Shown: piece after piece, positions 12,983 to 63,475 of the stretch
Layout: the number at the start of each line of letters is the position of its first letter
Position numbering within the stretch: the first letter of the stretch is position 1
Position numbers and translations under genes: made by a program
NCBI RefSeq assembly: GCF_013368755.1
Contig: NC_049561.1
Location: 2,108,001-2,172,000 of the forward strand
Direction of reading: 5' to 3'
Source of the DNA: Talaromyces rugulosus
Lineage: Eukaryota; Ascomycota; Eurotiomycetes; Eurotiales; Trichocomaceae
Length of the DNA stretch: 64,000 bases
Notes under the pieces: model-generated
Told to the model about the DNA's origin: nothing
The model's input: only the letters and a program-made list of their open reading frames with translations
The model's database searches: none

Positions 12983-13060
12983 CTAACCTCTTCCGAAACT
13001 GAACCCCTTCAGCGTTCCTACATTCTGCCCCAGCTGCAACCCAGAATTATGCGAGCCCGA
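12983..13060 (-). other. PP (RHIM-like) amyloid-signalling motif 1, hydrolase C-terminus
   Basis: The core is NSGLQLGQNVGTL, within the last 32 codons. The G-[LF]-Q-[IL]-G heart resembles the RHIM core of animal necroptosis proteins and the fungal PP motif. Confidence 0.85.
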
Positions 13061-14071
13061 AAACGTCGCATTCGACACATTAGCAGCCCCCTTCTCCTCC
13101 TCGGGAAGAACAATCTTGGACGCCCACTGCGTCAGAACCCGAACCACCTTTTTGAAATCCTTGTCGTCCTCAGCGTCGTACTGGCTCAGCCGCAGCTGGT
13201 TGCGCGCCAGGCGCTCCGGAGGAGGCGCATCGGGGCCGCGGGCCAAAGCCTCATCAACGATCTTGACGTCCTTGTTGGTATCGCCCAGCTTGGTGCCGGC
13301 TCCGGCATAGAAAGCTTCCACCTCGAACTCTGCGCCTGCTTGCTTGAGCTCGGCGAACCGCTGCGGGATGCCGCTGAGGCGAGTTAGCCGGTCTTTCAGG
13401 TCCGACTCGCTGGGCGTCTCAGCCTGAGCGACTTGGAGATACTTTGTGGCTGCTGCTGCCGATCCCGGCTGGAAATGGGGGGTTCCTAGCAGTAGTATAC
13501 CGTGGATATGCTCAATGAGCTCTTTTTTCCTGGGATGTTCAGCGGCGCGCACTAGGGCCTAGAGATGCATCGTTAGTAGTGGGGTTTCCCCATGGATTAA
13601 CAGCGAGGGTACCATACATTCTCCAAAACAACGCCCCCGAGACAATGTGCAACGAAAATGATTGGTGTTTCTTCCTATTTTTGCTTGGTCAATCAGCTGG
13701 ATCAAGACGCACGGGTGGCGGAGCTGGGAGGAACTACCTTGTCATTCTCAGTTCGATGGTCCATCAGCTCGTTGATCAGGTCGTTGGAAATGTCCGTGAT
13801 TTCGTCGTCCTCGTCGAAAAAGGGACCGACAGCGGCGTCATACTCGAACGACAGGATACATGCGTCGGAGATTTTCCCCGGGAGGAGCTTTTCAGGCCAG
13901 AAGACATCCGCCTCGGATGTCCATGGTGCTTGGTCGCCGTGCAAGCCGTGGACAAACACAATACTATTGGGTGATTTTGGGTAAGTACACTTATTAGAAA
14001 TGGGATGCTAGAGAAAAGAGATCTTACAAAACTTTGGCGTTGGCCGGTTCCCGAATCGCTCTGATAGACAT
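12983..14071 (-). CDS. SesB-type alpha/beta hydrolase with C-terminal RHIM-like PP motif
   Basis: A putative lipase/esterase-fold effector of the amyloid-signalling cluster. Four exons: 14028-14071, 13738-13963, 13618-13674 and 12983-13558; 903 nt, 300 aa. The fold is shown by IVFVHGLHGDQAPW (oxyanion-hole HGLxG), then the nucleophile elbow, then ILLLGTPHFQPGS, a sequence typical of fungal SesB-like proteins. The elbow reads FVAHCLGGVVLEN, so Cys101 sits where the family usually has the catalytic Ser of GxSxG. The C-terminus (aa 280-292) carries the PP motif NSGLQLGQNVGTL followed by a Gly/Phe tail. The gene is divergent from the Goodbye-HeLo gene, which ends in the same motif. The family role is known from Chaetomium SBP; its function here is inferred. 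Catalysis with the Cys is uncertain. Confidence 0.86.
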
Positions 14072-14704
14072 TTTGAAGATGGATATAGCAAGCAAGTGAT
14101 GATTCTTTGCGACTCCCAAGGGTCACTGACTACACAATGCAAAAGAAGGGACACATACGACCAAGGTAGGAGCGTGCAAAATTCACAACCAGACGAAAGA
14201 TTCACGTTGAGAATCTGCTTGCTACTTGTTTCTTAACTAGTCTACGGTTATTAGTCTACGGGCTGTATTTTCTCATTACGAAAAATACACAAAGCGGCTG
14301 TCATAGCTTTGCGCTGAGTCGGTCACCTGCATGGATGTGGCTCGCCAAAGCCTCGAATTTATGCAGAACGTTCAAACAGGCAAGAAGGGCAGTCATGCTA
14401 TTGGGCTAAATACGCTCGTTAATATCGCGTCTCGTATAAGTGGGGGGGGCGTCCTTTCCATGAGATCTCGCCTATCAATTATTACTACCGGATTGCGGCT
14501 ATTTACCGGTATTTTTCACTTAGGGCTATTGTCTGGTTGGAGCCAAGAGTTACAGCCGCAATTGGTTGGCCAGTTGACTTCCAGAGCTGACTCTGCTCTG
14601 TATAGTAGATGAGGCACTGGACTCTGCTGGCTCATTAAATAGTGTCCAAGTCCAAACAACATCTCAGTAACCAATTCAATCCCCCTCCAGCACTCCAACC
14701 CAAC
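14072..14704. promoter_or_regulatory. Divergent promoter region of the hydrolase and Goodbye-HeLo genes
   Basis: 633 bp lies between two head-to-head start codons. Shared regulation is plausible from geometry. A G8 tract is present at about 14442-14449. No specific operator was recognised. Confidence 0.5.
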
Positions 14705-16466
14705 ATGGGGGAACTCGAGACGTCCGACATCGCTCGACTCTGGCAACAAGCAGTCGAGGACTATGAGAAGCGGACCAACAAGTCTCTCCACCTGTCCCAG
14801 TTCAGCTCCATCGACCAAATAATAAAAGGCACCGAAGGGCTGTCGAACGAGTTCAAGGATTTCCGGCACGACCCATCGAAAACAGACAATGTGCGGACTG
14901 CATTGAAGAATAATCTATGGCTGATTCAGAAGGTCGTTAATACGGTTGAGGTGCTTGGGAATGCTGCGTCGGTATGTTTCTCTTATATGGAATTGATTTT
15001 TTATATTGATGCTGAATAGGCTTTTCCCCCCGCAATGCCAGCCAGCTTGATTTTCACGGCGTTTGGACAGGTTATGCAGGTACGAGTATTGATAACCAAA
15101 TGGCGATTTTAATTTCTGATCACGCCCCAAGTCTTTTGCCTCGGTATCCGCCGACTACGACAAGGTCATGGGGTTTTTCGACTTTACGCATCGCTTCTTC
15201 GACCGGCTCTCCATGATCGAGGATAAAACTCCCCAGCAAGCGCCGTTCCAGCGATGCGTTGCGCGCGTCTTCTCGGGCATGCTGACCATTTGTTCCGTGG
15301 CGCAGGAATATGCCGAGAAGAAAAGATTCAGTGAGCGGCTTTTCCTTCATCGCCTCTTTTTTTTTTTTTTTTTTTTTTTGTTACAGTGGAGTTAATCAAG
15401 ATTCTCTCATCTAGAAAAGTGGTTTTCCAATTTGGTCGATGGATCAGATGGGGCTCTTTCAGGCGCCATCCAGGAAATGGAGGAGGCCGTGAACGAGCTG
15501 ACGCAGGCCGTTGGCCTAGCCACGCTCCGCACCGTCGAGATCCTCGACGAGATCGTCCAAAGCATGAACGGAAACGTCGAGTTCCTCGTAGCGCAGGTCA
15601 CTGTAATCGACGGACGAATGGAGGCCATCAAATCTGACACGGGGACGCTCATCGAACAGACCCAGGCGCTGGAGCTGAAACAGGACGCGATGCTCCAGAA
15701 GCTGGATGAGCAATCGCGACTCTTCAACGACGCGGTGCAGAGCTTCGAGTATATCCAGATGGGGTCGAATTTCGGACAGCAGGGCTTCCAGGCCAGTTTG
15801 CTGAAACTGGACGTCGTCAGGCTCCGGCTGACGCGGTGGGGGCAGTCGGTTGGACTGGCGAATGTGAACGTGGACGACAGTCATGTGAAACAACTGCAGA
15901 TGACGAAGCTCGCCCCCGAAGACCAAGAGCAGGTCCAGGATCTGCTCGCTCAGATTCTGGAGCTCTTCGCCGAAGCCGAGGCGGCGTCGAAGCGATTGCG
16001 ACGACGGCATCCCACCTTGAAGGTGCTAGACCCCGTCGAAGAGCTCGACGGCGTCTCAGCCTCACTACATCAGAAGATGGCAGATCTCGCCAAGAAGCGG
16101 CAGGGAAAGTCCGAGCTGGAGCAGGACCAAGTCACTATTCTCTATGAGGAGAAGAATTTCGCGCGGCTGATCGAGGACATTGGCCAATTGGTGGACGGGT
16201 TGGTCGATCTTTTCCCGGGAATTCAGGAAGAACAGCGCAAGCTGTGTGAGGAAGAGGTGTCTGGGTTGAACACAAACGAGGGCGCTCTTTCGCTACTGAA
16301 GGAGGTCGCTGCTGGGCAGGACAAGCTGCTGAGTGACACGGTTGTCAAAGTCATCCAATCCACCACCACCTACACCAACAGTGTGGTGTTTTCGGGGCCT
16401 AACTCGGGCTTTCAGATAGGGAACAACTCCGGCAAGATTAGTGGTGTTCGCTTTGGTGGTTCCTAA
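14705..16466 (+). CDS. Goodbye-HeLo protein with C-terminal RHIM-like PP motif (putative cell-death executioner)
   Basis: 525 aa, four exons: 14705-14971, 15020-15079, 15132-15330 and 15415-16466. Residues 1-135 match the fungal Goodbye domain (DIARLWQQAVEDYEKRT, then LIFTAFGQVMQSFASVSADY, FDFTHRFFDRLSM). Residues 186-275 look like a helical/coiled-coil linker. Residues 276-495 resemble a HeLo domain: FEYIQMG (286-292), LDVVRLRLTRWGQSVGL (307-323), ILELFAEAEAASKRL, LHQKMADLAKKRQ, LTILKD-like LSLLKEVAAGQDKL. HeLo domains are membrane-damaging death domains, usually N-terminal with a hydrophobic first helix; here the domain is internal and that helix is not obvious. Residues 505-517 are the PP motif NSGFQIGNNSGKI. 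The gene is tail-to-tail with the NLR and head-to-head with the hydrolase. Domain calls are from recognition by eye; the execution role is inferred. Confidence 0.85.
16377..16466 (+). other. PP (RHIM-like) amyloid-signalling motif 2, Goodbye-HeLo C-terminus
   Basis: The core NSGFQIGNNSGKI (aa 505-517) is followed by a Gly/Phe tail (SGVRFGGS) that parallels the hydrolase tail (KGFSFGRG). Confidence 0.87.
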
Positions 16467-16727
16467 TTATGTCCGGCATGGAGTGATAGTTCAAGATAAA
16501 CAATGATTCCGTATTTATTTTCATCTACTATCATGAACCTTAGTGTTCTGGGTGTCCATAAAGAATAAGAGGCGACTGAGAGGCAACTGAGAGAAAGGAA
16601 ACAGGCGTGTAGCTTTTAAAATTTTATATTGAGATGATTGGGAAGAATTAACTGATGTAAACTCTCACAGCTGCTATTACAAGGAACAACATACAACAAG
16701 GATTATTAGATGCTGATAAATATACTG

Positions 16728-19700
16728 TCATAGCTCAAGTGTTTCCCAGTATGCGTGTAAGCTCCTTCGATCGATATTAAAGCTTGAGACTTGACCGTTG
16801 TCGCATCCGACAACCACTCGGTCGCCGTGCGTATCCCAACGAGTAGCATAAAAGTCAGGCGATAGCCGAAGGAAGGGCATGGCCCCATAGCATAACCACT
16901 GATCTCGGAGACAGAGGTTCTGCGATGAATCCGAATCCGACCTCTCTGGCAACTGCCCCTCTCCTTCTGCCGGGGTGCTCTCGAGCGCTATCGGTCCAAT
17001 GTCTGTTGCAAGGTATCGGTTGCCTGCGCTAAATTTTACGGTATACACCTGAGCGGATGTCTTGATCTCCTTCCATGGCCGGGACGACTTGATATGGCTA
17101 CCGACAGCGCGTCCCAGATACTTTGGGGCTTTGAGGGATTTTTTGATGCTCCAGACCCGGATGGTTTTATCGGCACTGGCTGCTGCGATATGCTGGCCGT
17201 CTGATGAAAAGGCCACTGAAAAGATCCAGTTTGAATAATCTGTGGTGGATAAATAGGCCTCAGTAATGATGTTGTCTGAATGGCATGGTAGTCTCTTCAG
17301 GAGGTCTCCTGTTGCAGCATCCCACAGCTTAAGGGTTTTATCAGTGGAGGTTGATAGAATTAGCTTGGCGTCAGGAGAGAAAACCAGCCTCGTGATTTGG
17401 GTTTCGAAGATCGCCTTTTGGAGTTGTTTATTGAAGATCTCCGTTGTCACCAGGGAGTCAAATTTGCTCCTGTAGCCTGCCATTATCTTCAGGAGACTGC
17501 CTGTGGCCGTGTCCCAGAGCCTAATCTTGCCATTACAATGGCCCGATGCGATGTGCTTGCCATCAGGTGAGACGGCCACAGTCGTGAACGCGTCGTCGCT
17601 CTCAACAGATGTCTGGACCTCACCCGTGGCAGCATCCCAGATTTTGACTGCCTCGGAGGAGCAGGAGACGATCTGCCTGTTGTCTAGTGAAAAGACCACC
17701 TTCTCTACTGTGTCTAGATGCCCTGCTAGAGGTTTTTGGAGATCGCCCGTTGCAGCATCCCAAAGCTTGATGGTCTTGTCAGCAGAGCCTGACGCAACCA
17801 CCTTGCCGTCTGGTGAGAGGACCATGGCTGTAACAGGCCTTGAGTGGCCCACAGCTTCCTGGATGCCACCTATGGTATTATCCCAACGCTTGATAGTCGC
17901 ATCAATAGAGCATGTAACAAGCTGCTTGAGGTCTGGTGAGAAGGCGATAGACGTAACTGTCCCTGCATGGCGTTTTAGCGTCTTCAGAAGAGTGCCTGTA
18001 GCGTCCCAAATATGGATCTTGCCATCTTCAAAGCCTGCTGCGATGTGTTTACTGTCGGGCGAAAAGACCACACTCCAGGAACAATCGCTTGCGAGTGTCT
18101 TGAGCAGGTCCCCTGTTGCAGCATTCCACAAAATGACGGCGTTAAAAGCTCCTGATGCAATTTGCTTGCCGTCTGGTGACATGGCCACACTCAAAACCCT
18201 ATCTGTGTGGCCAATGAATGTCTTCTGAAGGTCACCTGTGGTAGTATCCCAGAGTCGGACTGTGCAGTCTCCAGCTGCAGAGCCTGATACAAGCTGCCTG
18301 TTGTCTGATGAAAAGGCCAGAGCCGAGCATTCGTGTGAGTGGCTTTCTAGTATCTTCTGGAGGTCCCCTGTAGCAGTATCAAAAAGCATGATACGTGTCA
18401 TACCGCGCGACCAACCGAATGCTGCGATCTGTTTGCAATCCGGCGAGAAAGCTCCGGCGTGGAGGCCAAATCCGCCCTGTTCAGGTGGCTCCAAGTAGGT
18501 ATAGCTGGCCTTCGATGTGCCGAAGTGGTCGGCCATCTCTTGAGGGTCACCTGTGGTGGTATCCCAAAGCATAACAGAGCCATCATAATTGGCTGATAGA
18601 ATCAGCTTGCTATCTGGTAAGAAAGCCATCGCCGTGATGTGCTTCCAGGAGCTGGATGATGGCTTTTTCACGTGGTCCCCTAATAGTGTCTTCTGGAGGC
18701 TGCCTGTAGTAGCATCCCAGAGCTTAATCATACCACTGTCAGAGCCTGATGCTATCTGCTTGCCGTCAGGTGAGAAGGCGACGTTCCGGACAGTTTCTAA
18801 ATGGCCTGTTAGTGTCTGTATCATAGGTGTCCAACTATCCTCCATGGGAGGAGCTCTTCCCAGCCATGCAGGAGCTTTGTCAAGGTTTTCTCCTTTCACA
18901 ACACTTGATTCAGGACTGAAAATGACGGCAGAGCTGTAGATTTGCAGTGGCCAGTGCGACAAAGTGTGGTAGTGTCGCAGTAAAAAACGCATAGCATCTT
19001 GCACGAATGCTAAAGCTTGACAGTCAACCTTTGCCAACTTGATTAGTAAAGACGAGGACGTCAGAGAAAACATTAGGAACCCACTTTCAATATTTCTTCC
19101 AGGGCTCTCAACATGTCAATGGCCTTTGGTAGCCTGTCCAACAGACTCAGGCATTCTAGCCATTCCAACAACTTTGTGTGTAGGAATACGCTAGCCTGGC
19201 TCTTGTCGCTGTCGTTGCTTGTGTTTTTTAGATGTGACACCCAGAACATAGTCGCATAGTCCACGCGAGACAGAATCCCATTCTTCGGTTTATTTTCCAA
19301 ACCTTCCAAGGAGTCTCTCGTGGAATCGGGACGCGGCAGGTCGACCAGGTTGGGCTTGAGACATTCAGATAAATAGGACAGACAAGCGAGGACAATCTCT
19401 TCATGTCCAAAGCGTCCATGAGAGTCGAGTATAGACAGCCCATTCTCTCCGGCCAAGTAATCTCGCGCCGACTGATGAACAAACTCGATGTGGTCTTCGC
19501 GCAACCGGATGAATGAAGCACAGCAATCGACCAATGCTCGAATGGTGTCCTCATCATCGGTTAGGCCGATCACACTAGCAACTTCCGCCACTTTCAAAGG
19601 TCGGTATACCGTCATCATGGCCTTGAGCAGTCGCATACACTTCTGGACTTCAGCCAAATCGCCTTGGTTGAGCTGGTTCAATACCCGATCATAAAACGGA

Positions 19701-20773
19701 TGCAAACCCGGGGGTAAGCTTTGAACTGTGGACAGAGCGTCATCTCGGCAGACACTCTCGAGCGCCTTGCATACCAGGCTCACCCATAAGAAGGTCCCTT
19801 CTGATCTTTCAGTAAGCTCAGTCTCGATCTCGCTCTTCAGAGTCGCTCCATATTTGTGCTGGCGACTAAGCTCCTCCACTTTGGAAGCGATATACGCCTC
19901 CACAGCCCCAGAAACAGATTGGGAGTTGTGTTCCCCATCCAGATTGATTTGCACCTGGTCCTGACCAGCTAATAAGACCCGCTCTGCGCCGTCCCATGGC
20001 CGGCTTGTCAACATCCACTTGATCTTACCGGGATGATCCAGTCCCTTTCGCACGATGGACTTGAGAAAGTCAACCACGTCGTCATCCTGACATTCATCAA
20101 GCGCATCAACAACCATGTATACCCTAGAGTACTTGCACCGGGCCAGCATCTCGAAAAGAATGTTCCACAACGATTGCCACGAGGTTACATCCTCGCTGAA
20201 GGACTCCTGTATTGTGTCCCACCGGCGACGGAGCGACTCTTTCAGCTCCGGCTGCTGATTCGCCAGCTGCAGAATCAACCCCTTGAGGATGGCTTCCAGT
20301 GTATTGAGCTCGTAGTCGGCATTCTGGCAGAACGAATAAATCACCACGGTGGATTCATCCTGTGCTCGCGCCCGGGCGAGCTGCTCAATCAGCCCGATTG
20401 ACAACATGGTCTTGCCCTTCCCCCCGCCTCCCTTGATCCAGAGCAGACCGACCTCGTCCCCATTTGCCCAATCCTTGTACTGCGGGTCTTCAAGAATCCA
20501 CTCGATCGACTGGTGAACCAGCCTGTCCTTGCTCTCCTTCAGGCGATTCTTCACAGCCAGCGAGTCCGGGCAGCGCAGAGCGTGGAGACAGATTCGATCG
20601 ATGTCTTCGGTCGTGTACGCTGGAAACAGCGTTTAGCCTCCGTTAAATAAAACTGGAGAATCACATGGAAATATACCCCGCGCCACATGGAATTCTGCGG
20701 TGATGGAACCAGAATTGTTTCCAATCTGGAGGCCATGGTTTGTCGCATTAAACGCAGTGGACGTGTCCATCAT
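16728..20773 (-). CDS. NACHT-WD40 NLR with N-terminal RHIM-like PP motif
   Basis: A fungal NOD-like receptor of 1310 aa. Exons: 20677-20773, 19085-20619 and 16728-19028; they sum to 3933 nt. Exon 1 encodes almost nothing but the PP motif NHGLQIGNNSGSI (aa 12-24). The NACHT ATPase follows: Walker A KGGGGKGKTM (glycines and Lys at aa 96-103), Walker B YMVVDALDE (about aa 200), and LTSRPW sensor-like sequence. Twelve or thirteen WD40 repeats fill about aa 613-1190; their joints read LWDATTG, LWDTATG and similar. A 56-nt intron (19029-19084) with an ACTAAT branch site joins NACHT to WD40 (ILK/VDCQALAFVQDA). Without it the two halves look like separate genes. Family knowledge: WD repeats sense ligand, NACHT oligomerises, and the N-terminal motif nucleates amyloid. 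Partners here are inferred from the shared motif and clustering. Confidence 0.94.
20700..20740 (-). other. PP (RHIM-like) amyloid-signalling motif 3, NLR N-terminus
   Basis: The core NHGLQIGNNSGSI lies wholly inside the 97-nt first exon. It differs from the HeLo-protein core at only four positions, although most codons differ synonymously. Confidence 0.88.
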
Positions 20774-50297: not shown

Positions 50298-52198
50298 CTA
50301 AGTGCTAACTAGATCATGCTTGATCAGATCCACGGCCCGTTCTGCGATCGCATAGACAGAGCTCTGTGTATTTCCTCTCGTGGCAATCGGGATGACACTG
50401 GCGTCAACGACTCGCAGATTTGTCGTTCCCCATACTCGGAATCGAGAATCAACTACTCCTCCTTTCTCTCGCGGCATCATGGCACATGTGCTTGTCGGGT
50501 GCCAGGTACTCTTCGCAGCTGATTTCACATAATCTTTCACCTCCTCAAGGGGCGCCTTACGCAAATCATCTGGGACTCCAGGACTGCGTTTCCCACCAGG
50601 CTTCAAAATGGAAGCCAACGGTGGAGAGGCAACGATAGATTCAATATAACGCGTGTGACGGGCCAGCAACTCAACATCAAGAGGGTGTGTCAGGTAACGC
50701 GGGTCAATGGCGGGAGAATCGGCGACATCACTGGAAGTAATATGGCTGCTGCCACGCGACAGTGGATGCAATAGACTCACTGCAACAGTGATGTAGTTCT
50801 CGGGGAATTTGGTACGCAGAACTTCATCTCCAGCACCAGAGCCCTTGAAATCAGATTGTGCGGGATATGTAAAATAACCACCAGTGGCCTCATGAGGGTT
50901 GGATAGGAGGGTGCGGACAAAGGAACCAAGGTCAGATGAAAATGAATCTTCAGAAGACTCGGGAATCAAGTTCAGAACCTGCAAGAGCTCACTTTTGCCT
51001 GTTGCGGGATTAGAAAAGTCGGGGATGGGAAGCAAAGCAGAAGAATAATTCCCGCCAACCGTGAAGGGGCCGAAACGATTGGTTTTATATTCCTCCATTG
51101 CGGCACCCAATGCCGCAGGAACACGTCGCATGAGGTCATCTTTGGTGTTGATCGAATCTTGCACTTCGAAACTGAGTCCGGCAAGAACATGATCCTGCAA
51201 GTTTTCACCAACATTAGGATTGTCGATTAGTACCTCTATTTCATGTTTCTCCAGGATAGCATGAGATCCGATGCCTGAAAGCTCCAAGATCTTAGGGGAG
51301 TTGAATGCACCCGCAGAAATAATCACAGTCTGACGAGCGGTAACAGTGTGTGAAATGCCATTGTTTCGGTACTGGCATCCCGTTGCTACGATGTCTTCAT
51401 CAGGATCGGTGTGTCGAAAGAGGATCTTCTCAACCAATGCTCCGGTTATTATTCGCAAATTGGATCGGTCTTTGATGGGCTCATAGTAGGCAGTCTGTGA
51501 ATAACTCCGAGTCTTTTCAACGGGCTCGATGGTCGCAGCATTAATATAGCCTCCAAATGCATTTCCGGAGAAAGGGTCACCAGACATGGGGAAGCCTAGA
51601 CTTCGCAGAGATTCAATCCATGCGTTAGCTACCGGATCTTTGATAGCATCCGGGTAGGATGCATGTAGTGGACCCTCGAATCCGCTCGTTTGTCTATCGA
51701 CATATTCCAGCCCCAATTGTTTTTGCTGCTCCTCCGATGGTAGCGTGAGCGTGTACGTCTTTTTATAGTAGGGTTCTAGGGTTTTCCAATTCCAGTCGGG
51801 ATTGCCTAGCTTCCCCCAGGCATCAACATTCACTTGCGAGTTGGCAATGAATGCCATACCATTGATGGCACTGGAACCGCCGATGAGTCGTCCTTGGGGG
51901 AGGGGGAGTTGCTTCCCATTCAAAGCTTCCTTCGGCGAGACACAACATTAGCTCATTCTATTAGATGTCTGTATGGTCTTACTTGAGGCAACGTCACAAA
52001 GCCCCAGTCAGATTCCGTGCCAACAAGACCAGGCCACAATGCAGGCGTCTTCACTCGAGGATCATCTTTCTGATCCAAGCCAGCTTCGAGCACTAGGACG
52101 TTAATGTTGGCATCCTCAGAGAGACGCGCAGCCAGTACAAGGCCCGCCGTTCCACCGCCGATGACAATAACATCTGCTTCCACGGGTGACGACATCAT
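50298..52198 (-). CDS. GMC-family FAD oxidoreductase
   Basis: A glucose-methanol-choline oxidoreductase of 615 aa. Exon 1 is 51983-52198 and exon 2 is 50298-51929. The FAD-binding Rossmann motif VIVIGGGTAGLVLAARL lies at aa 9-25, followed by the acidic end of beta-2 (LVLEAG). GMC signature 1 appears around GRLIGGSSAINGM and signature 2 around SAGAFNSPKILELSGIG. The C-terminal catalytic His region is STWHPTSTCAM and the usual Asn/His partner region is GNTQSSVYAIAER. No secretion signal is visible, so an intracellular tailoring role is likely. Placed beside the diterpene cyclase, it probably oxidises an alcohol on the scaffold; this is inferred from context. The start MMSSPVEAD is the first ATG; the frame upstream has only a GTG. 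Confidence 0.93.
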
Positions 52199-52712
52199 AA
52201 ACTCCTGGAGAAGGAAAGGTTTCACGGGGCTGGGGGTAGAAGGGAGAGCTGTAACAATGATAAGAGTGTTACGCAGGGAATCGAGAGACTCGGTGAACTA
52301 GAAGAAGACTTGCCCCTTAGTTCTTTGTCTCTTAGCTAGTTCTTTGCCTTTCCTATCTGTATTTAAAGATGAGGTGGGGCGGTATTTTAATATACGATAT
52401 TTTACCATGGTATTTGTATTACCTAGCGCGACGCATGGTCCACAGCGGGGGACGTCGGATGCGCGGGTATTAATTAGTTACTTCTTACCATCTGACCTAA
52501 GAAGTAGGGGCATAATCTATTCGTTCTCGGGGAGTAAACAGGTTCTTGCATACAGCATCATGCAACTCAATGCACATCTTCATAGTGCCCGAAATCAAAA
52601 CCCATGAGTCATGGCCCTGCCTCCCTTGTCATTTATCGCACACGTCATCTGGTGAATATGGTTGCCTGTGTGATGCAGTAAAACGCCGCTAAAGCTGCAT
52701 GTGCGTTTTATT
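52199..52712. other. Intergenic 514 bp
   Basis: GMC promoter side on the left and diterpene cyclase 3' end on the right. No gene supported. Confidence 0.45.
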
Positions 52713-55700
52713 TTATTTCTTATCCTGCTTACTTGGGGTCCGTGGCGTGTGGTCTTTGAGAATGTACATCTGCCCATACATATCGACTGCGGTGCTAAAC
52801 ATCTCGAGAGCCGTGGCCACACGCCGACAAACGAGGCCATCAAGGGCCTCATGAAGAATTGTGTCGATCCTTCTTTTTTCGTGTTGAACGATACTAAGAA
52901 GCTCCTCTTTATGCGTTGTTAGTACTGGGTCTTTATCTGTCTTTTCCTTGCCGCTGTATTCCCTGATCACCCGACTTTCATGGGTGGGATCAACACTTCC
53001 AGGAGAGGTGAAGAAATCAACACTGTTCAAATTGCCTTCAGCATGATCACGTTCTATGGACCCGTAGTCGTTGCTGAGTCGTGAGAATGCCGCTATGTGT
53101 TGGGATAGCTGCTCTGCAAAGTATTTAGCTCGAATAGACGGAAGGGCCTCGGTTCCGGAAGCAGTCAGGCAAAGTAAGAAGAAAAAGGCCATAGGTCCAC
53201 CGGTGTGATGACCAGAAGTGGTTTGGATCCAAGAGTATAGAGAACCATAGTGGTTGTCGCATGGCGAGGATATTCCGGTGCAAAGTTTACTTGATGGGCC
53301 CGTATCCTGTGGATTGGCAAGTCTCTTCTCATGCTTCTGACTTTGGAGATGACAGTTATCTTCAACCTGATCCAGGTGGGTGAGCAAAAGAAGGCGCAAA
53401 TGCAATAGCAGCAATCTCTTGTCATATTCTGCCGCCGATCGGACTTTTGGGTGCTCCCAAACATATTGAACGAACTGGTAAAAGATTTTATCCAGTTTTG
53501 CTATGTCTGGTGCAGGCAAATGACCATATTGTGTGATATAGTCAAATTCATCGTTGACTGCCATCCTAACGGCTCGTCGTTGAATAACGTTCTGTGATGC
53601 AATGTCGTGTTCCACGTGTGAATCTAGTGTGTAAAGAAACGAAGATATGGCCATCATGTCTTCTAGTATATCAGCCCCGATGTCCGCGTTGACAATGCGA
53701 GCCGAGATAGTCCAGGTAAAAGGCACGAAATCCAACTGTTTCCCGATTGTTTCTAGATTCCCAAAGACTTGCATGTGTTTTTGTTTCAGTTTGGAACGGA
53801 AAGAATTGGCTTCCATGAGGGTGGCCTGTATCAACCACTGGGGTGTATTCTGCAAGAGGGGAACTGCGCTATAGGATTTACCACTGAGGCGCAGCTTAGC
53901 AGTCGCCGAAAGGTCCGTTGGTCCGATGTTGCAGACATTGTTTGAGGGCGACGAAGCTTCACTCCTGAAGTTTTTAGGCGATGAACACCATAGCGCGGCG
54001 TAAGTGTAGGCATTTGACAGCACTTTAGAGCCGTATGTAACCTTTTCTACCCAAAGATAGTCCGGGGTGTTAAGGCCATTCTCATCATCAAAAAATGCCA
54101 ACAGAAACGATCTTCCGCGTTGCAAGGCAAGTTCTACTTGTTGCTGCCAGGCTTTTCCAAAATCCTTGACGGCATTGATAGTAAGAAGGGCATATGCAGT
54201 GGTTTCTCTCGATCCACCCCATGCTCCGTCTGACTGCTGTCCCTGAAGGGTATTGATCAATATTTGTAACAAAACCAGGGGGACATCGTTCTCGAAGAGT
54301 TCACGATCGTGAACTAGTAGCACATCTTTATTATCGCTAAAGACTGACAAGACTTGGGATAGAGCTTGTGCCAATAACATGATAGTATAGAAGGGGGAGA
54401 TATTCTTAGATAGAATTCATATCAGTATAAAGTCAATTTAAAGATAAAGGTCACATCTCACATACCCATTTATCCTGAAGCGCTGGTGAGTTGTACCATT
54501 GACAGCAGAGGAAGCGAGTCACTTGAACGATTGTAGAGCTATGTGACCTTATATCATTGTCGTTTGATAAAAGTGCAGCCAGTACGTTGCAGTTGGAGCT
54601 TATACTAGCATTTCTCTCTTTGGGGTAAGTCTTAAAGTAACCCCTCGTGTCCCAGAACTCATTCACTAAGGCGGTAGCGGATATTTTGACTCCGAGGAGA
54701 TTCAGACAAACGATCGCTTTCGCAGTGTCATCGGCGTCAGGTTGAATCTGTGGAGCTGTATTATGTGAATTAATACGCTGGTTCCATTTACTTGATACAT
54801 TGAAGATTATTCACTCACCAAAGCCGACTAAACCATGCCGCTTGTGGAATTCGTCCTCAATGATGGTCCGAAATACGTCCAACTTGTCTTTCCCAATGCT
54901 CTCTTCCGTAAATCCACCAACAAATAGGGTTGTCAAGGCCTTTCGTGGTTAAGTGAGTCTAAGATTCAAAAAGAGATTGGGGGAGAGATAAATAGAACCA
55001 ATTAAGACAATGCAACTCACCCAATTATATTCAAAGAGCGTAGTTGGAAATGCACTAGGAACACTACCATTACCTTTTCCGTACGACTTTGAAACGACAT
55101 TCCGAAGATACATTTCTGCTTCATCATCCCATATGGAGGCACGGGTTAAATAGGCTGATGTAGCTGCGGGCGATGCCATAATGCTGCCCCGTACTTTGCG
55201 AAAGGCAAGTTTATCATAATTGACCCAACCTTCCAAACCTTCAAGTGAATGAAGGATAGAATGGGCTTTTCCATTCTCATCCTCGATCTGACGGAAGTCG
55301 ATCATCGACAGTTTTTTTGCTCGGATGTCAGATAGTTCATGTTGGCCATTAAATTGAAAGAGCAGGTTATATTGCTTGAGCGATTCCAGTAAGGCTGGAA
55401 CCAGAATTTCATATCCGACATGCAGAGTTGACGATACCTCCCATTTCAATAGCATGTCTTGGAGAGCCACTTTGGCGGACGAAATTCGTTGGTCGAGGTT
55501 GTACCCTGTTGTTTCGATCTGGTAGGGTGCTTCGCGATGCTGGCACAACGCAAACAACGCTGCGGCAGTGTTGAGGATGCCATCAATTGGAGATGCATAG
55601 GCTTGCCATCCCCCTGAGTCTTGTTGTTGGTCCAGAATAAATTGAAAACTATCTGGAAAAAGCCAGATATTGGCACCTTCTTCGGACTTCTTTACCATTG

Positions 55701-55815
55701 ACAGCCATGCTGTATCGTAGACGGAGCACGTCATAAATCCACAACCATAGTGCGGGTCATAGCCATCGACGAGATTTTCGATGAACTGACATACTCGAGA
55801 ACTAAGGTTATCCAT
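52713..55815 (-). CDS. Bifunctional-type diterpene cyclase (CPS/KS family)
   Basis: 965 aa in four exons: 55021-55815, 54819-54939, 54466-54755 and 52713-54404. Fungal CPS/KS enzymes first protonate GGPP to a copalyl-type diphosphate (class II site), then ionise it to a hydrocarbon (class I site). The class II acid DxDD is intact: PDADDTAKA at aa 312-315, with VYDTAWLSMV and QQQDSGGWQ upstream as in the family. The class I alpha domain is present (DFVPFTWTISARI, EDMMAISSFLY). The usual DExxE at aa 663-667 reads DSHVE, so the second acid is Ser. The second metal motif NDYGSIERDHAEGN (about aa 847) looks intact. The class I step may be altered or lost. MDNLSSRVCQF is the first ATG. It is the core enzyme of the neighbouring cluster. 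Confidence 0.94.
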
Positions 55816-56544
55816 AAGCAGATACAATTTCCTTGTTGTGATGAAGAATTGGTGGAGCAACAACAGAAAGGCAAACAATGATCTTAGGCTCCCAGCAGCG
55901 AGATAAATTTTAGTGCCGAAGTCCAAGGGTTTCTAGTTATCTGCCGATGCTGCTTACCCCCCTCACCCCCTTTTCTTTTCCTTTTTTTTAGGGTCCTGTG
56001 TGGAGATGGAATCCCATCTCCCCTGCTCAGCCGCAGTGGGCGGGAAACCCTGTAGCGCTCCGATGCTACCTGGTATATATGTGTAACTGGTTCTAACTGG
56101 TAGACACGTGTAACTGATTATGTCCGTCGTATAAGGACCAATGAAAGTCATAGGAAAGGCTCCGGCTCGAACCGAAACTTGCTTAGGAGCTTTGACAAAT
56201 AAGTAATGCCTGAAAAAAAGCAATTTGTAATGTTGTCACATAAATTACGCCCTGTATAGTTTTGGTATTCAATATCATGACCACATATGTAGCTAATATA
56301 GATGTAGGAATTTCTTCCGCTACTTATCTCTATTTAGCAGTAGTTTTGATCATCATTCCTAAAGCTACTCTCATAGAATGTGGGAAAGATTTTATGAATG
56401 TTCCTAGCTAGAGACTACAAAATATTGTCCATATCACCTCTGTCATGATAGACTTCACTAACGGACAATCATCCTTGATCCTTATCTTTAGGATAGATTG
56501 TTTGTCCCCGGCGCGGGACAGGGCAAACATCTCGGAAGAGAGGG
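55816..56544. other. Intergenic 729 bp
   Basis: Contains the promoter of the diterpene cyclase (reading leftward) and the 3' end of the rhodopsin-domain gene. A TATATA-like element is at about 56083-56092 on the minus strand. No gene supported. Confidence 0.45.
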
Positions 56545-58107
56545 TCAATGGCCCTTTCCAGCCAAATGATCCTCTGAAGCATCAATGGTTTCTGAGTGTT
56601 TCCATCCTTGCTGTACAGTCCTCGTTGGCCAGGTCTCGTTGTGGCCCCTCTCCACGTCAGCGATTGGCAATGGGTCATCAGCCTCGCCTGTTTGTATAGT
56701 GACTAGCTGGATGTTATCAGAGCTGTTGTTGACAACATTTCGACGATTTCTACCGGTGGAAAAATGTGATCGACTCGACTTGTTTGATGATGCTGTAGAT
56801 GAAGGGGTAGATCGGACCAAGAATGTGCGTAATGATCTCATACTAGTCAACCACCACGATTTCTTCATGTTGTTTCGAAACAGAGCTGCCATAACCGGTA
56901 GACAGGTACAGATTATACCAATGTCAACTTCGACAGTGCTGTTGATGCCTGTTAGTCGCAACGCTAATACTCTTTCTAACCAAATCAGACGTTCGACACA
57001 CGTACTTGACGATATAAATACTCAGCAGTGAATACGTGTTGTCCTTTATGTCGAACTGAAAACGATAAATGCAGCCCAGGAAGCTCATAACGACGCCTCT
57101 AGAATAGTACAAGAATCAATTAGTACAAAGCTTGGAAACTCTGGTAGAGGAAATATCCTTACAGAAGACCAGTCAGGAAGACGGTAGCGACTCTCCATTT
57201 TCGAGCCGTATCCAGATGCAACTGCGTGACAGCTACCAGCGGGAGGCAAATGATATAAACATCGCTGACTACACCGATCACTGCAACGCTGTAAGTCAAA
57301 AGTGTGAGCTTGTGGTTATCCTTCACAAAAATAAAGAGGAAGAAAACAATCGTATAATAGATGCTGCAAAACACAATTCCTGCCCAGATTCCAATGTTGA
57401 CACCTTGATTCAATGAGAACAATCGTAGGTACAGTAACAAGAGAGTCAACTTGGTAAAGTAGATGGCAGGTGCAGTTAAGATCGCGGACGGCTCTGCATA
57501 CTGAATTAAAGATTAGAATGAAAACATATCAGTTAGCCAGCTCTATATTACTAGAGAAGAATTTTGTGATTGAAAGAAGGGGTCGTTAAATTCTCACTTT
57601 GTAGAATTCAAGTGCTTTGGCCAACGTCAAATCCCAGGCATGGGTTCCTAATCCTAGGGTTCCCTCTGTGGAGATCGAGTCATTACATGGATATTCATAG
57701 GTCAGTTTGTTACAATACGAACCCTGAATGACCAAGCCAGTGTAAGCGGCCTGGGAAAGCTGTCGAGAGCGCAAAAGAATGAGCACGCAAGTTAGTTTAG
57801 GCAAGAATATATTCTACTGTACCAATGCTAGAACCGCTGTAACTGCAAGGTTATTAATATTATTGTTAGCATTTTCATTGTTGTTCGAGACAGCAATCGG
57901 AGCCTTACGGTCGTCCCACCATAGCGCCCGTGTAATTCTTGATCGAACATAGAGGCGCAATATGACGAAAAATGTCATTAGAGCGGTAGATATGCTCGCG
58001 ACGATATAGTAAATAAACGCCTTGCTGGGCGGATTATCGAAGTTAGGCTTCACTCCAGTCGGAGGCGTGACCGATGGGACTTTTGTAGGATCCAGTCCAC
58101 TCGCCAT
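56545..58107 (-). CDS. Rhodopsin-domain (PTH11-like) seven-transmembrane protein
   Basis: 401 aa in six exons: 57909-58107, 57823-57842, 57598-57759, 57163-57500, 57006-57098 and 56545-56938. The second exon is only 20 nt. The fungal rhodopsin-domain pattern is clear: a first helix (AFIYYIVASISTALMTFFVI), the conserved WWDD before helix 2, the LTLLLLYLRLF segment, CSIYYTIVFFLFIF, and a late EVDIGIICTCLPVMAAL helix. The cytoplasmic tail is Ser/Asn rich. These proteins are common and often unassigned membrane receptors or cluster accessories in fungi. A sensing or export-related role in the diterpenoid cluster is inferred from location only. Confidence 0.87.
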
Positions 58108-59127
58108 GACTGATGGATAGAATCCGCTGGAGATTAATGTGAAAATGAAAACGAGCGAAGTAGCCAGCTATTGGACATGAAAGAGTGGAAGGGGCGAGAC
58201 CAAATGAGAAAATTCTGTCGAATCTAGAAGCGAGATATATTGACGGTGAAACTCCATGATCCATTTCACTCCATGCAACTGTATCATTGATGCTGTCTCC
58301 CCCCCACCCCCCCTTCCTGTCCCCGACATATTGGGGAGGGGTCGGGCTATATCTTTTCCTCTCTTTTCCCTTTATTTCTTCTTCCTAATCCGTGCATGTT
58401 AATGGGGGCGATTGTGCTAGGCGCATGGGTGTAACTTTGCGCCATGCACTTCATTTGGCCCGACAAGTTCAATTGAACAGGGAATCGAATAAAAAAAGCG
58501 AAAAGGTCTGACTACTGAATAAGGGCCCAATGAGGTGGCATAATAAGCTGGGGCTATTTTCAGCTGAGGGTGGGCTGAATTCGAATAATTGCATAGTCAC
58601 CGAGCATTGGTTTGTTAATCCATTTCCGGTGTGCATCCCTGCATGTTCTGTATTACAGATTCCAAGTTGTTTTTACACAGTACCGACTAGTACAAGAACT
58701 AACGGGTGATCGACACGGCTAAATGAAGATAAGCTCCGAAATACAGACAACTAAAGCGGCTCGGCGAGTATGGATTATTACAAGTTTAGGATCCACGTAC
58801 CAATCCATGTATCAATCCATGTGCATATGCATATGCATGCACGGAGCACCGTAACAAGGATGGGATTGCACACTACCCTCATTTGGACATCGTTGAGAAG
58901 GTCTGTCTACACGACAGACTATTATAACCATGTTCAAAATGTGATGCCCCTTGTTTTCATCCCCACTGCTTGCATGACTCTGATCTGCAATCGTTCAAAA
59001 TGAGCCCAGGGTGTGGAGCAGCAGCCATCAGCTCCCATGAAGGGGATAGATCTTTTCGCATATAGTAGCTCCGTCCATCTTCGTAATATTTCGCCCTGTG
59101 ACTTGAGCAGATCAGAATACCCAAGCA
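58108..59127. other. Divergent intergenic region, 1.0 kb, rhodopsin-domain gene / MFS
   Basis: Both genes start from this region. A C-rich tract at 58297-58313 and short ATGCATATGCAT-like repeats near 58810-58840 are visible. No gene supported. Confidence 0.5.
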
Positions 59128-60950
59128 ATGGCTGACTGGGAAGGGACAATTGAAAACTTAGGCTCAGAGCTTGTCGACTTCAATGGACCTGATGACCCAG
59201 CCATCGCCCGCAACTGGCCACCACGGCGTAAATGGGCGATCATCGCTATCTTGTCCACCATGTCATTTGTCACGTAAGGTCTAGCCCCAAGGTTTTCCTT
59301 GTTCAAGGGACACGTCAAGAGGCAATGAATGAAGTGAAAACAGTTGATTCTAATTCACCTACAACCAGGCCTCTTGCATCCTCCATTTTTGCGCCTTCTG
59401 TGCCACAATGTCTTGCAGAATTTGGTTCGAACAGCACAATCCTTGGATCTCTCGTGGTTTCTATTTACATTCTCGGATATGCCGCAGGACCCTTGGCCAT
59501 TGCACCACTCTCTGGTATGTGCTGTTATCAAAGGAACAACAACGTTGAAGTGGGCAGAGGCTACTTACTGATATCTATCACCAGAGCTTTACGGACGCTC
59601 ACCAATGTACCACGCAACCAACATCGGCTTTATAATTTTCACAGTCGCATGCGCAGTCAGTACGAACCTCACCATGTTGATCTGTTTTCGTTTTTTAGAA
59701 GGCGTGGCCGGATCTGCCGTTCTTACTATCGGGGGTGGCACGGTGGCAGACCTCTTTGTGCAGGAGGAACGTGGCAGAGCGCTCGCTTTCTGGACCCTTG
59801 GCCCGATACTAGGACCTGTTATTGGGCCAGTTGCCGGCTCATTTCTCTCGGCATCCAAGGGCTGGAGATGGGTGTTCTGGCTCCTTGCTATTGTGGTATG
59901 TTGTTGGTTTGGATTTCTTTCCTTTCTTCTCTCTTCTTTGCTTTTCAACCCTGCTATCAACCCGGACAAAGAGGGAAAGAAAAAATATCCAGCGAGGGCT
60001 AACAAGGAACAGTCCGGATCGATCACTGCTTCCTTTCTCATCCTGCTGCGCGAGACGTCATCGACTGCAATTTTGAGGAAGCAAGCCAAGAGAGCGCGAA
60101 AGACCACCGGTAATCCCCATTTTCGATCTTGTCTTGACGGAGACCAGGCTACAAGACAAGCGTTCCATAAAAGCATTATTCGACCGATTAAGCTCCTTGT
60201 GGGATCTCCCATTGTAGCTTCAATGTCAACGTTTGCTGCAATTATCTACGGTTACCTATACCTGCTTTTTACCTCCTTCACACCCGTGTTTGAGCAGTCC
60301 TACGGGTTTTCCCCAGATGTGGTAGGGCTTTGCTATCTGGGCACCGGGTTTGGCATGATCGTGAGTCTCTTCGGATTTGGCGTGATCTCTGACCGGATGA
60401 TCAAGATGAAATCTATCAAGAATAAAGGGGAGATGAAGCCAGAGTACCGGTTGCCGCCGATGATCCTTGGGGGGATATTCGTCCCTATAGGTCTACTACT
60501 TTACGGCTGGTCGGCCGAGAAGCAAGTGTTTTGGTTTGTCCCGATCTTAGGAACTGCGTTCTTTGGTTTTGGTTTCATGGCGTCTTTCGTAAGACTGATC
60601 TTTTTACTTTGCCTTTACGTTGAATTATTTCGTCTTTACCTTCCTTGTGATGAAATTCCTATAGCTAATCTTCGATCCTGCTTTCATTGTAGATGCCGAT
60701 ACAAGCCTATCTTGTGGACGTTTTCACCGTTCATGCTGCCTCCGCTCTCGCTGCTGCCACAGTGTGGCGCTCCATTGTTGGAGCATTGCTACCACTTGCA
60801 GGCCTCCCGATGTACAATGCTCTGGGTCTTGGATGGGGAAACACTTTACTTGGGTTGTTGGGTGTTGCAATGATACCGGTTCCCTTTTTGCTCATAACAT
60901 ACGGAGAGCAATTGAGGAGCAACCCACGATATCGAGTTGATTCATGGTAA
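59128..60950 (+). CDS. MFS (DHA1-type) efflux transporter
   Basis: 478 aa in five exons: 59128-59273, 59369-59514, 59585-59895, 60013-60588 and 60693-60950. An N-terminal hydrophilic segment with NWPPRRKWAIIAILSTMSF precedes the helices. The antiporter family signature is seen as ELYGRSPMY, then LEGVAGSAVLTIGGGTVADLF and LGPILGPVIGPVAGSFL (motif C of drug/H+ antiporters). The C-terminal half has FGMIVSLFGFGVISDR, GWSAEKQVFWFVP and IQAYLVDVFTVHAASALAA. This matches polyamine/multidrug DHA1 exporters. In this position it most likely exports the cluster product, an inference from context. The 117-nt third intron contains in-frame readable sequence that can mislead gene finders. Confidence 0.93.
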
Positions 60951-61823
60951 TCTTTATATATGCCATAACACACTAATTATCGAGAAGCTCCATATAAGTA
61001 GAATATTATTGTTCTCTTCAGGAGCTTGGTGCATTACGCTCTGCGTACATTTTCATATATCTATAGATCCGGGCATATGTAGATGGGTATTGATGTATAC
61101 GAGTGGGGAATTCGGTTTTGAATCTATTTTGAGGGGTTGTCTGGAAATATGATATTACAGGTGCCTTTGAACATACAATTACAGATGGATTCCTACTGAA
61201 GTTGTAAAAAAATCATTATATATACGTAATGTAGGGATAATCAAACCTCGACCGAGCATAGTGCTTAGAATTAAGGCCTAAGGTGTATGCATGGGGCCAA
61301 CCTGATGCAGAAAATCCCTGTGATTACTGCAAGACAACGAGCTAATAACGCTCTCCCTCCAGCTAGTCAAGTTTTAGTGTTGATAATAGGCACCTAACTC
61401 AATCAGGCAGCCTCCGCGGCTGTTGACGTTCGCATTCGTGGGTTCGGGGGCGATCGCTGCACCTGCTCCTGCATAATTAGACTACTAATACAAGGTAGCG
61501 GTATGGTATTGAAACCTGACCACCCGGGTTCTTCGGCGTCTATTCAAGTTTATAGTAGACAAGTCAAGTTCCTATCATGGAATAGCCCTAGCCAGCTGAG
61601 TGTTCATACTTCGGCTAGTATTTGCAACACAATGTAACAACGAGGCTGCCACTCATTCTCGAGTGATACACAGGTGGTAGGTGACGGGGAGAAAAATAAG
61701 TATAAAAATTTCTAGCAAACTTAACATACTGTTAAATGCCCAACGTCCACACTGCCTGTCATTCCCTTATCCGACTAATTTTTGAACATCTTGTAGGCAT
61801 TGATTCAATTCCTAACCAACATC
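60951..61823. promoter_or_regulatory. Intergenic 873 bp with P450 promoter
   Basis: No coding potential is supported. A TATAAAAA box lies at 61701-61708, about 115 bp before the P450 start, a plausible core promoter element. Confidence 0.55.
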
Positions 61824-63475
61824 ATGTCTACAAATTCATTCCTGTGGCTGTTGGTCGTTACGTTTTTCCTGGTAAGATCGCACGGCTACAACTGTATGAA
61901 TGTGAAGCCGCTAATCATCGCTGGTGATAATATGTAGTGCATTGCAGCTCGATTACTTTACAATGTATACTTTCACCCTCTGTCCAAATTTCCCGGTCCT
62001 ACCCTCTGGGCAATGACAAGACTCTGTTTTGTCACATCACTTGTTCGCGGTGATTTGCATTTAAAAATAAAGGATTTCCATGATCGATACGGAACTGTCA
62101 TCCGTGTTGCCCCGAATGAGCTATCCTTCATTGAAGGATCAGCATGGCAAGACATGTACACTGGACACAACAAAAACAAAGGATTCCCCAAAAATGCCGT
62201 CGTTTTTGGAGCCCAGCAATTTCGCAGCATCTTAGACGGTTCTGAAGAAGACCATACCAGGATGAGGAAGATTTTGGCGCATGCATTCTCCAACCAGGCG
62301 TTAAATCGACAAGAGGGGCTACTGCACCGCTATATCGATATCCTGCTGCGCAAGCTGGGCGATGTTGTCGAGAGTGGTCAATCTATCAATATTGTGGAAT
62401 GGTATAATTGGCTGTCCTTTGATCTTACTGGAGAACTAGCTTTCAGCGAGTCATTTGATCAGCTCGAGCAAAAGGCTTACCACCCATGGGTGAAGATGAT
62501 TGTCGGTCACTTGAAGTATTCAGCGTTGAGTATCGGTCTGCGATATTACTCCCCATTGAATGAGTTAATGCCTTATATTACCCCACGCCATCTACATCGC
62601 TTGAAATGGTCATTCGTCACAATGTCGCGCGAGAAGGTGCTCCGACGCCTTGCTCGACCCGAGTCGAAAACACTTGACGACATTCTGGGTGCATGTCTGT
62701 CTCCGGACAGTGGAGAACCTATGATGACAATGGAAGAGTTAATAGGCACCTTCACCTTTCTCATCGTGGCAGGCAGTGAAACCACGGCGACAGTGCTGGC
62801 AGGCGTCACGAATTACATCTGCCGCAATCCCAAAGTGTTTCAACGCTTAAAAGATGAGGTTCGCGCAATAAAAAGTGAAAAGCAAATCACCATTACTTCC
62901 ACAGCAACGATGCCATATCTGAATGCGGTCATCAAGGAAGGTATGCGTATGTGCTATCCTATCCCTGGTGCCCTCACTCGGGTTGTTCCTCGCGGAGGAC
63001 GACTCGTCAGTGGTCATTTCATCCCTGAAGGAGTGAGTTATATTTTTTCCCCTCTTACTTTCTTTGATTATTCCTTTGTTTGCATTTTGTGAATTGCCCA
63101 ACTATCTATCAGAAACTGCTGTGCCATTTAATGTCGGAAACATTAAAGCTAACAATTTCACAGACTCTGGTAGGGATTCCTCAATTCGCCGCACATTATT
63201 GCGATGTGAATTTTGAAAACCCTTATGAATTCATTCCAGAGCGCTGGACACAGATCTTAGATGATGATAGCAGGAGCATCTTTCAACCCTTTGCCATCGG
63301 TGGCCGCAATTGTATTGGTCAGAATCTAGCTTGGGCAGAGATGCGACTCGTTCTTGCAAGAGTTGTGTACAATTTTGATTTAGAACCGGCCGACGATCTC
63401 TGTTGGTTGGACCAGAAGTCATATTATCTGTGGGAGAAGGAACCATTTTTAGTCCGAGTCTCCAAACGCTCTTAG
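61824..63475 (+). CDS. Cytochrome P450 monooxygenase
   Basis: 484 aa in three exons: 61824-61871, 61938-63032 and 63164-63475. An N-terminal membrane anchor (SFLWLLVVTFFLCIAA) precedes the proline-rich hinge FPGPTLWA. The I-helix oxygen-activation motif reads AGSETT, the ExxR motif is KEGMR, PERW is present as IPERW, and the heme-binding loop is FAIGGRNCIGQNLAWAEMR with the Cys ligand. All catalytic elements are therefore in place. The sequence resembles the isotrichodermin C-15 hydroxylase-like group of fungal P450s. As the last gene of the diterpenoid group in the window, it probably hydroxylates the cyclised product. The second intron is rather long (131 nt). Confidence 0.95.

Follow-up and report, generated by a model that had tools for sequence, protein, structure and literature searches.

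The PP motif is a fungal motif clearly resembling the RHIM (receptor-interacting protein homotypic interaction motif) of mammalian necroptosis, and the published PP experiments that we found concern, in the available parts of their reports, Chaetomium and Podospora systems of the HELLP/SBP/PNT1 type. We analyse here three adjacent Talaromyces rugulosus genes, designated A, B and C, which fill positions 12983-20773 of a 64 kb stretch of DNA (the window) and each of which encodes a PP motif at one end of its product. The closest described systems are the triads of Daskalov et al. (2012, PMC3321046), where the PP motif and the Goodbye domain were named: in the accessible text, four Goodbye-HeLo proteins are encoded beside STAND (signal transduction ATPase with numerous domains) and sesB genes, with one common terminal motif. 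The motif was defined in part from the Goodbye-HeLo triad, a type also present in the standard laboratory fungus Aspergillus nidulans, where AN2021, a homologue of C, adjoins AN2022, a homologue of B, by locus tag. In HELLP/SBP/PNT1 of Chaetomium globosum and HELLP/PNT1 of Podospora anserina, the PP motif likewise lies at effector C-termini and at the receptor N-terminus (available text of PMC7885112 and PMC5485727). The Chaetomium system, as described there, likewise has one receptor and two effectors, one of which, SBP, is a SesB-type putative lipase (PMC7885112).

The T. rugulosus locus has the features of the 2012 triads: the same three partners in the same clustering, Goodbye N-terminal to HeLo, adjacent SesB-type and STAND genes, and the PP motif at two C-termini and at the receptor N-terminus. 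We found no difference in architecture from the triads as set out in the accessible text of that paper, and on this description the locus is a further member of the Goodbye-HeLo/sesB/STAND PP triads and no new kind of system. What is new here is a charged, internal helix in place of the HET-S membrane helix in 42 of 42 homologues of B, a Cys and a Gln in A, motif versions specific to each gene, a gene tree that mixes genera, and the presence of five PP loci in the genome. In the available parts of the open-access literature, we found no mention of an altered HeLo N-terminus or of altered SesB catalytic residues. The features of the locus, in window coordinates, are the following.

12983-14071, minus strand: gene A, SesB-type alpha/beta-hydrolase-fold protein, 300 amino acids; exons 14028-14071, 13738-13963, 13618-13674 and 12983-13558
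13016-13048, minus strand: PP motif of A, core NSGLQLGQNVG; terminal peptide scores 50.7 bits with Ses_B
13618-13674, minus strand: exon of A with the nucleophile elbow AHCLGG, Cys101 replacing Ser (gene model and alignment)
14705-16466, plus strand: gene B, Goodbye-HeLo-PP protein, 525 amino acids; exons 14705-14971, 15020-15079, 15132-15330 and 15415-16466
16401-16433, plus strand: PP motif of B, core NSGFQIGNNSG; terminal peptide scores 36.7 bits with Ses_B
16728-20773, minus strand: gene C, NACHT-WD40 receptor (NOD-like receptor), 1313 amino acids; exons 20677-20773, 19085-20619 and 16728-19037
20708-20740, minus strand: PP motif of C, core NHGLQIGNNSG, from residue 12; terminal peptide scores 28.0 bits with Ses_B

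Transcription of A and B is divergent, that of B and C convergent. Gene models were obtained by splicing with GT-AG introns. The model of B agrees at 100% identity and coverage with a database protein, TRUGW13939_00719 from T. rugulosus, and those of A and C rest on their own splice sites and on close homologues, whose lengths they fit (300 amino acids for A, about 1290-1316 for C); no identical T. rugulosus protein was present for either among the homologues listed (70 of 70 for A, the best 120 of 378 for C). A run of 23 T at 15357-15379, inside the third intron of B (15331-15414), may hamper gene calling.

A six-frame scan of the window with the strict pattern NxGxQxGxNxG returned exactly three matches, one per gene end in A, B and C, and when the window was simulated 300 times with a first-order Markov model, the pattern never occurred. 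In the spliced models the matches fall at the C-terminus of A, the C-terminus of B and the N-terminus of C, and all three terminal peptides pass the 23.2-bit cut-off of the Pfam profile Ses_B (PF17046). An earlier note on this DNA had placed one motif at three termini of adjacent genes; we recovered the same peptides, its span begins exactly at the stop of A and ends at that of C's start, the profile search that it proposed gives a Ses_B match for each terminus (50.7, 36.7 and 28.0 bits), and Pfam agrees with its naming of a hydrolase (A), a Goodbye-HeLo protein (B) and a NACHT-WD40 receptor (C). It had also called the motif RHIM-like. This is right as to the GxQxG core, the RHIM of RIPK1 and RIPK3 having the G-hydrophobic-Q-hydrophobic-G core in common with it but differing in the proteins of the pathway on which it lies; at E ≤ 10, however, the three peptides list only Ses_B and no RHIM profile, HMMER filters dropping weak matches. 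Its proposal of a variant of HELLP/SBP/PNT1 was partly correct: this is a related PP triad in which the receptor is NACHT-WD40 and one partner is Goodbye-HeLo, but not a fresh variant, the triad type being already described in the accessible text of PMC3321046.

Membership of HELLP/SBP/PNT1 itself is ruled out by Pfam, B being without HELL (PF17111) and C without NB-ARC-TPR. The receptor is NACHT-WD40 here and NB-ARC-TPR there, and the executioner carries Goodbye and HeLo (PF14479) instead of the HELL domain. HET-S/NWD2 of P. anserina likewise pairs a NACHT-WD40 receptor bearing an N-terminal amyloid motif with an adjacent HeLo protein of the same fold; its motif, however, is the HET-s repeat and not PP, whereas at our locus HeLo follows Goodbye inside the protein and begins with a charged helix. 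In the sesA/sesB/het-eN cluster of Nectria haematococca, too, a SesB-type protein goes with a NACHT receptor that shares its motif with two partners (available text of PMC3321046), but the motif is sigma rather than PP, sesA stands where Goodbye-HeLo stands here, and the repeats are ankyrin and not WD40.

In C, Pfam finds a NACHT-type NPHP3_N domain (131 bits, residues 70-239) and WD40 in 11 stretches. Among the best 25 of 67 families matched, there is no effector domain belonging to the receptor itself, and what follows the motif is the NACHT-type domain.

The matches of B are Goodbye (PF17109, 50.3 bits, residues 13-135), HeLo (118.4 bits, 278-470) and Ses_B (29.9 bits, 493-519). For a conservation analysis, 61 near-full-length sequences among the first 114 homologues were aligned, and 42 were kept at less than 90% identity. 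Mean identity to B over these 42 non-redundant homologues is 0.879 for the 13-residue motif, 0.758 for Goodbye and 0.645 for HeLo, which makes the PP motif the best conserved of the segments compared; in an alignment of 28 rows, F501, G503, N505, G507, Q509, G511, N513 and G515 are invariant. The HeLo fold is kept, as in HET-S, and the HeLo match begins at profile position 12. Residues 1-34 of HET-S form a hydrophobic N-terminal helix that enters membranes (available text of PMC3531502). The segment of B matching this helix contains three to eight charged residues out of 22 in 42 of 42 homologues, with a mean hydropathy of -0.65 (a measure of hydropathy only), and it is internal rather than a free N-terminus, the HeLo match starting at residue 278 of 525. 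In the structure model, one helix (237-288) leads into HeLo with no free end, the first part of this helix being of low confidence. From the charges of this N-terminal helix and its position inside the protein, we infer that HeLo of B would be unable to insert into membranes in the HET-S manner.

The second partner is also unusual. Gene A matches Ses_B (46 bits, at the C-terminus), DUF676 (35 bits) and Abhydrolase_6 (28.8 bits), and its top homologue is from Penicillium canescens (93% identity, against 84% for T. marneffei). The structure model of P0121, a homologue 93% identical to A (mean predicted local distance difference test score 83.5; final 38 residues below 50), has an alpha/beta-hydrolase fold, with 270 PDB matches at E ≤ 0.001, of which thioesterases and monoglyceride lipases come top; the template modelling scores are modest, 0.37-0.48 on the query side among the best 50 of the 270. 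At the usual catalytic Ser and His sites, A has Cys101 and Gln230, the roles of these two sites being deduced from alignment with Ser-type relatives. Letters were present at both sites in 49 of the 71 aligned rows: seven have Ser and His, all of them less than 40% identical to A, 18 have Cys and His, 20 have Cys and Gln, and the remaining four combine Gln with a nucleophile site occupied by D, G or N, one of these rows being a fragment. Overall, Gln occupies the site in 24 of the 49, and in 20 of the 24 rows at least 69% identical to A (A included, and counting rows with letters at both sites). A, which lacks the usual catalytic Ser and His, is unlikely to be an active serine lipase; the sister clade, in which the His is retained, might have a Cys-based activity. 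In Oidiodendron maius, the 798-residue protein P0039 is annotated as a fusion of a SesB-like and a Goodbye-HeLo-PP protein, with a single Ses_B match at its end, and may be real or the product of a gene-model join. As for the 'complete amyloid-signalled cell-death module' of the earlier note, the phrase goes beyond what the sequence holds, given a HeLo domain without free hydrophobic N-terminus in B and a hydrolase fold without the usual Ser and His in A.

Homologues sharing these domains are frequent in Aspergillus, Penicillium and Talaromyces; they are also found in Polytolypa, Clonostachys, Trichoderma, Fusarium and Oidiodendron. The tables, compared by hand, gave 27 cases among the matches listed in which homologues of A and B lie on equal-sized contigs of one organism or sample, and nine such cases for B and C. 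The motif itself differs between the genes: position 8 is Q in 55 of the 57 A homologues with a recognisable motif (70 of 70 examined), N in 106 of 110 B homologues with a motif (best 120 of 122), and N in 30 of 39 NACHT homologues with a motif inside the first 75 residues (best 120 of 378). Across six triads, 9-10 of 13 residues are alike between the motifs of C and B, and 7 of 13 between those of C and A; three more triads were omitted, one gene model in each lacking its motif. These comparisons indicate that, as judged from the residues, PP motif versions sort by gene and not by cluster, and that the receptor resembles B. Such a gene-wise grouping, with the receptor closest to B, hints that the receptor may address B first. 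By contrast, extensions of the sigma motif were grouped by cluster (available text of PMC3321046). PP prions of two species cross-seed at 36% identity between their PP regions, according to the accessible part of PMC7885112, so that by analogy A is probably still within reach of the receptor amyloid despite its differing motif.

A quickly built tree of 35 homologues of B, with branch support from the Shimodaira-Hasegawa-like approximate likelihood ratio test (SH-aLRT) only, barely reflects taxonomy, and genera are mixed. Genus labels change 14 times, against a mean of 16.1 after shuffling, and as few changes were seen in 23 of 200 shuffles. Constraining T. rugulosus and T. marneffei to group together was rejected (approximately unbiased test, p = 9.4e-5; the pair was picked after viewing the identity table). 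Such a tree fits transfer between fungi as well as old alleles. Allorecognition genes often retain old alleles, and old alleles or hidden paralogues under balancing selection, instead of horizontal transfer, might explain the mixing; two copies of some members in A. navahoensis and A. spectabilis, and a genus scatter slightly below chance, are in keeping with this. We nevertheless regard this explanation as somewhat doubtful: B of T. rugulosus is 93% identical to its homologue in P. canescens and 81% to that of T. marneffei, and a Hypocrealean Clonostachys sequence stands beside an Aspergillus at 95 SH-aLRT, although the short (24 kb) contig that carries it is a possible contaminant. Other distant homologues lie on larger contigs (1.07 Mb for a Fusarium receptor of 89% identity, 483 kb for the Trichoderma evansii proteins), which also speaks against old alleles.

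Cargo of a Starship element is defined by a DUF3435 captain gene on the same contig. We counted 25 DUF3435 matches in the genome, a lower bound, with none on the contig of the locus (C1), and rejected this candidate; a decayed captain gene could escape such a search.

How might the triad work? In Podospora, PP regions behave as prions and switch HELLP on (available text of PMC7885112). Our analysis establishes A, B and C with their domain make-up, a conserved motif, and linkage of these genes in further fungi. We consider it fairly probable that the receptor switches on both PP partners through a predicted amyloid fold, passing on a putative cell-death signal, the Goodbye domain of B being the likely acting part. 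A ligand would bind the WD40 repeats of C, which would oligomerise, and the clustered N-termini would nucleate an amyloid able to template the C-termini of B, whose motif is closest, and of A. HeLo of B would then be a switch linking amyloid to the Goodbye domain, which stands at the front of B just as it does in all-in-one Goodbye-NACHT receptors. A would carry the motif as a partner that lacks ordinary serine-hydrolase activity.

Two other scenarios are considered. HeLo of B may still be a pore former, PP conversion unfolding it and another segment of B inserting into the membrane, with A an active lipase as proposed for SBP. HeLo proteins are the executioners in HET-S, the fold is well kept in B, Goodbye-HeLo and sesB products are listed as effectors in the accessible text of Daskalov et al. 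(2012, PMC3321046), and the Cys-His pair in 18 of 49 rows would allow a Cys hydrolase in the sister clade. This scenario is unlikely, however, as the counterpart of the inserting HET-S segment bears charges and lies inside the protein in 42 of 42 homologues, helix 237-288 continues into HeLo with no free end (subject to the low confidence of its first part), and T. rugulosus A combines Cys101 with Gln230, Gln being found in 24 of 49 rows, four of which have D, G or N as the nucleophile residue (one a fragment).

The second scenario involves the other PP loci of the genome, which was scanned over 35.8 Mb in 6 contigs. Ses_B gave 10 matches over the cut-off at five places, three of the 10 in the window, and one further match below it. 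A second PP triad is located at 2.66 Mb of contig C4 (C4:2653001-2673000), with paralogues of A and B plus a NACHT receptor. The B paralogue, B2, is about 58-61% identical to B, and its motif was found by the motif script and not by Ses_B; the motif of the receptor, NKGLQMGQNYGNM, reached via an inferred very short first exon, is nearer to the A type than to that of its own B2. At 3.39 Mb of contig C5 (C5:3391397-3395000), the start of a HELL-type protein (PF17111, 36.6 bits) with a hydrophobic N-terminus has a PP-like sequence close by, behind stops (an intron or decay), and an upstream exon of a TPR protein carries the motif NRGVQVGYNAGNV; the Pfam search gave no NB-ARC at this locus, and the two genes resemble a putative HELLP/PNT1-like pair. 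Two further places on C5 encode PNP_UDP phosphorylase-like proteins with a PP motif: at 0.87 Mb (C5:872987-874600), NSGFQVG...GPIY is common to this protein and to an adjacent receptor-like gene, and at 3.26 Mb (C5:3255914-3257023) the PNP_UDP protein is alone, with no second PP match within the 10 kb examined. Grouping by cluster was not significant for the 11 PP motifs compared (p = 0.21), so that cross-talk between PP loci is possible. That A and B are brakes or decoys, amyloid-competent but with disabled effector domains, which soak up or limit the PP amyloid of these loci, would agree with the missing HeLo and hydrolase features, with the presence of PNP_UDP proteins and of a TPR receptor adjoining a HELL-type start, and with HET-s being a natural non-toxic prion form of HET-S (available text of PMC7885112), but it is quite improbable, given that Goodbye is conserved in B beyond the need of a plain decoy (0.758 over 42 homologues) and that a dedicated receptor is kept beside B.

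We put forward only tentatively that, throughout the Goodbye-HeLo family, the pore helix has been replaced and HeLo is an amyloid-triggered clamp that frees Goodbye, a putative executioner, accompanied by a pseudo-hydrolase with a gene-specific PP motif, that a single receptor amyloid has two addresses (N or Q at position 8), and that the set has moved between distant fungi. The replaced HeLo helix raises a testable question, namely what Goodbye does and whether an amyloid switch can fire something besides a HeLo pore. Should the SesB partner prove to be a pseudoenzyme, the notion that PP systems use a lipase effector would have to be revisited. The interest of the locus is in having two partners without their usual working features, which poses a clear question for the bench.

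Two minor observations concern other loci. At C2:1631500-1635000, a NACHT-ankyrin receptor adjoins a HeLo protein of canonical type whose N-terminus is hydrophobic, possibly a pair of the HET-S/NWD2 type. Farther along the window, at 50298-63092, open reading frames judged by eye resemble a GMC oxidoreductase, a terpene cyclase of the copalyl/kaurene-synthase type (two open reading frames), a major facilitator superfamily transporter and a cytochrome P450, which may form a diterpene cluster.

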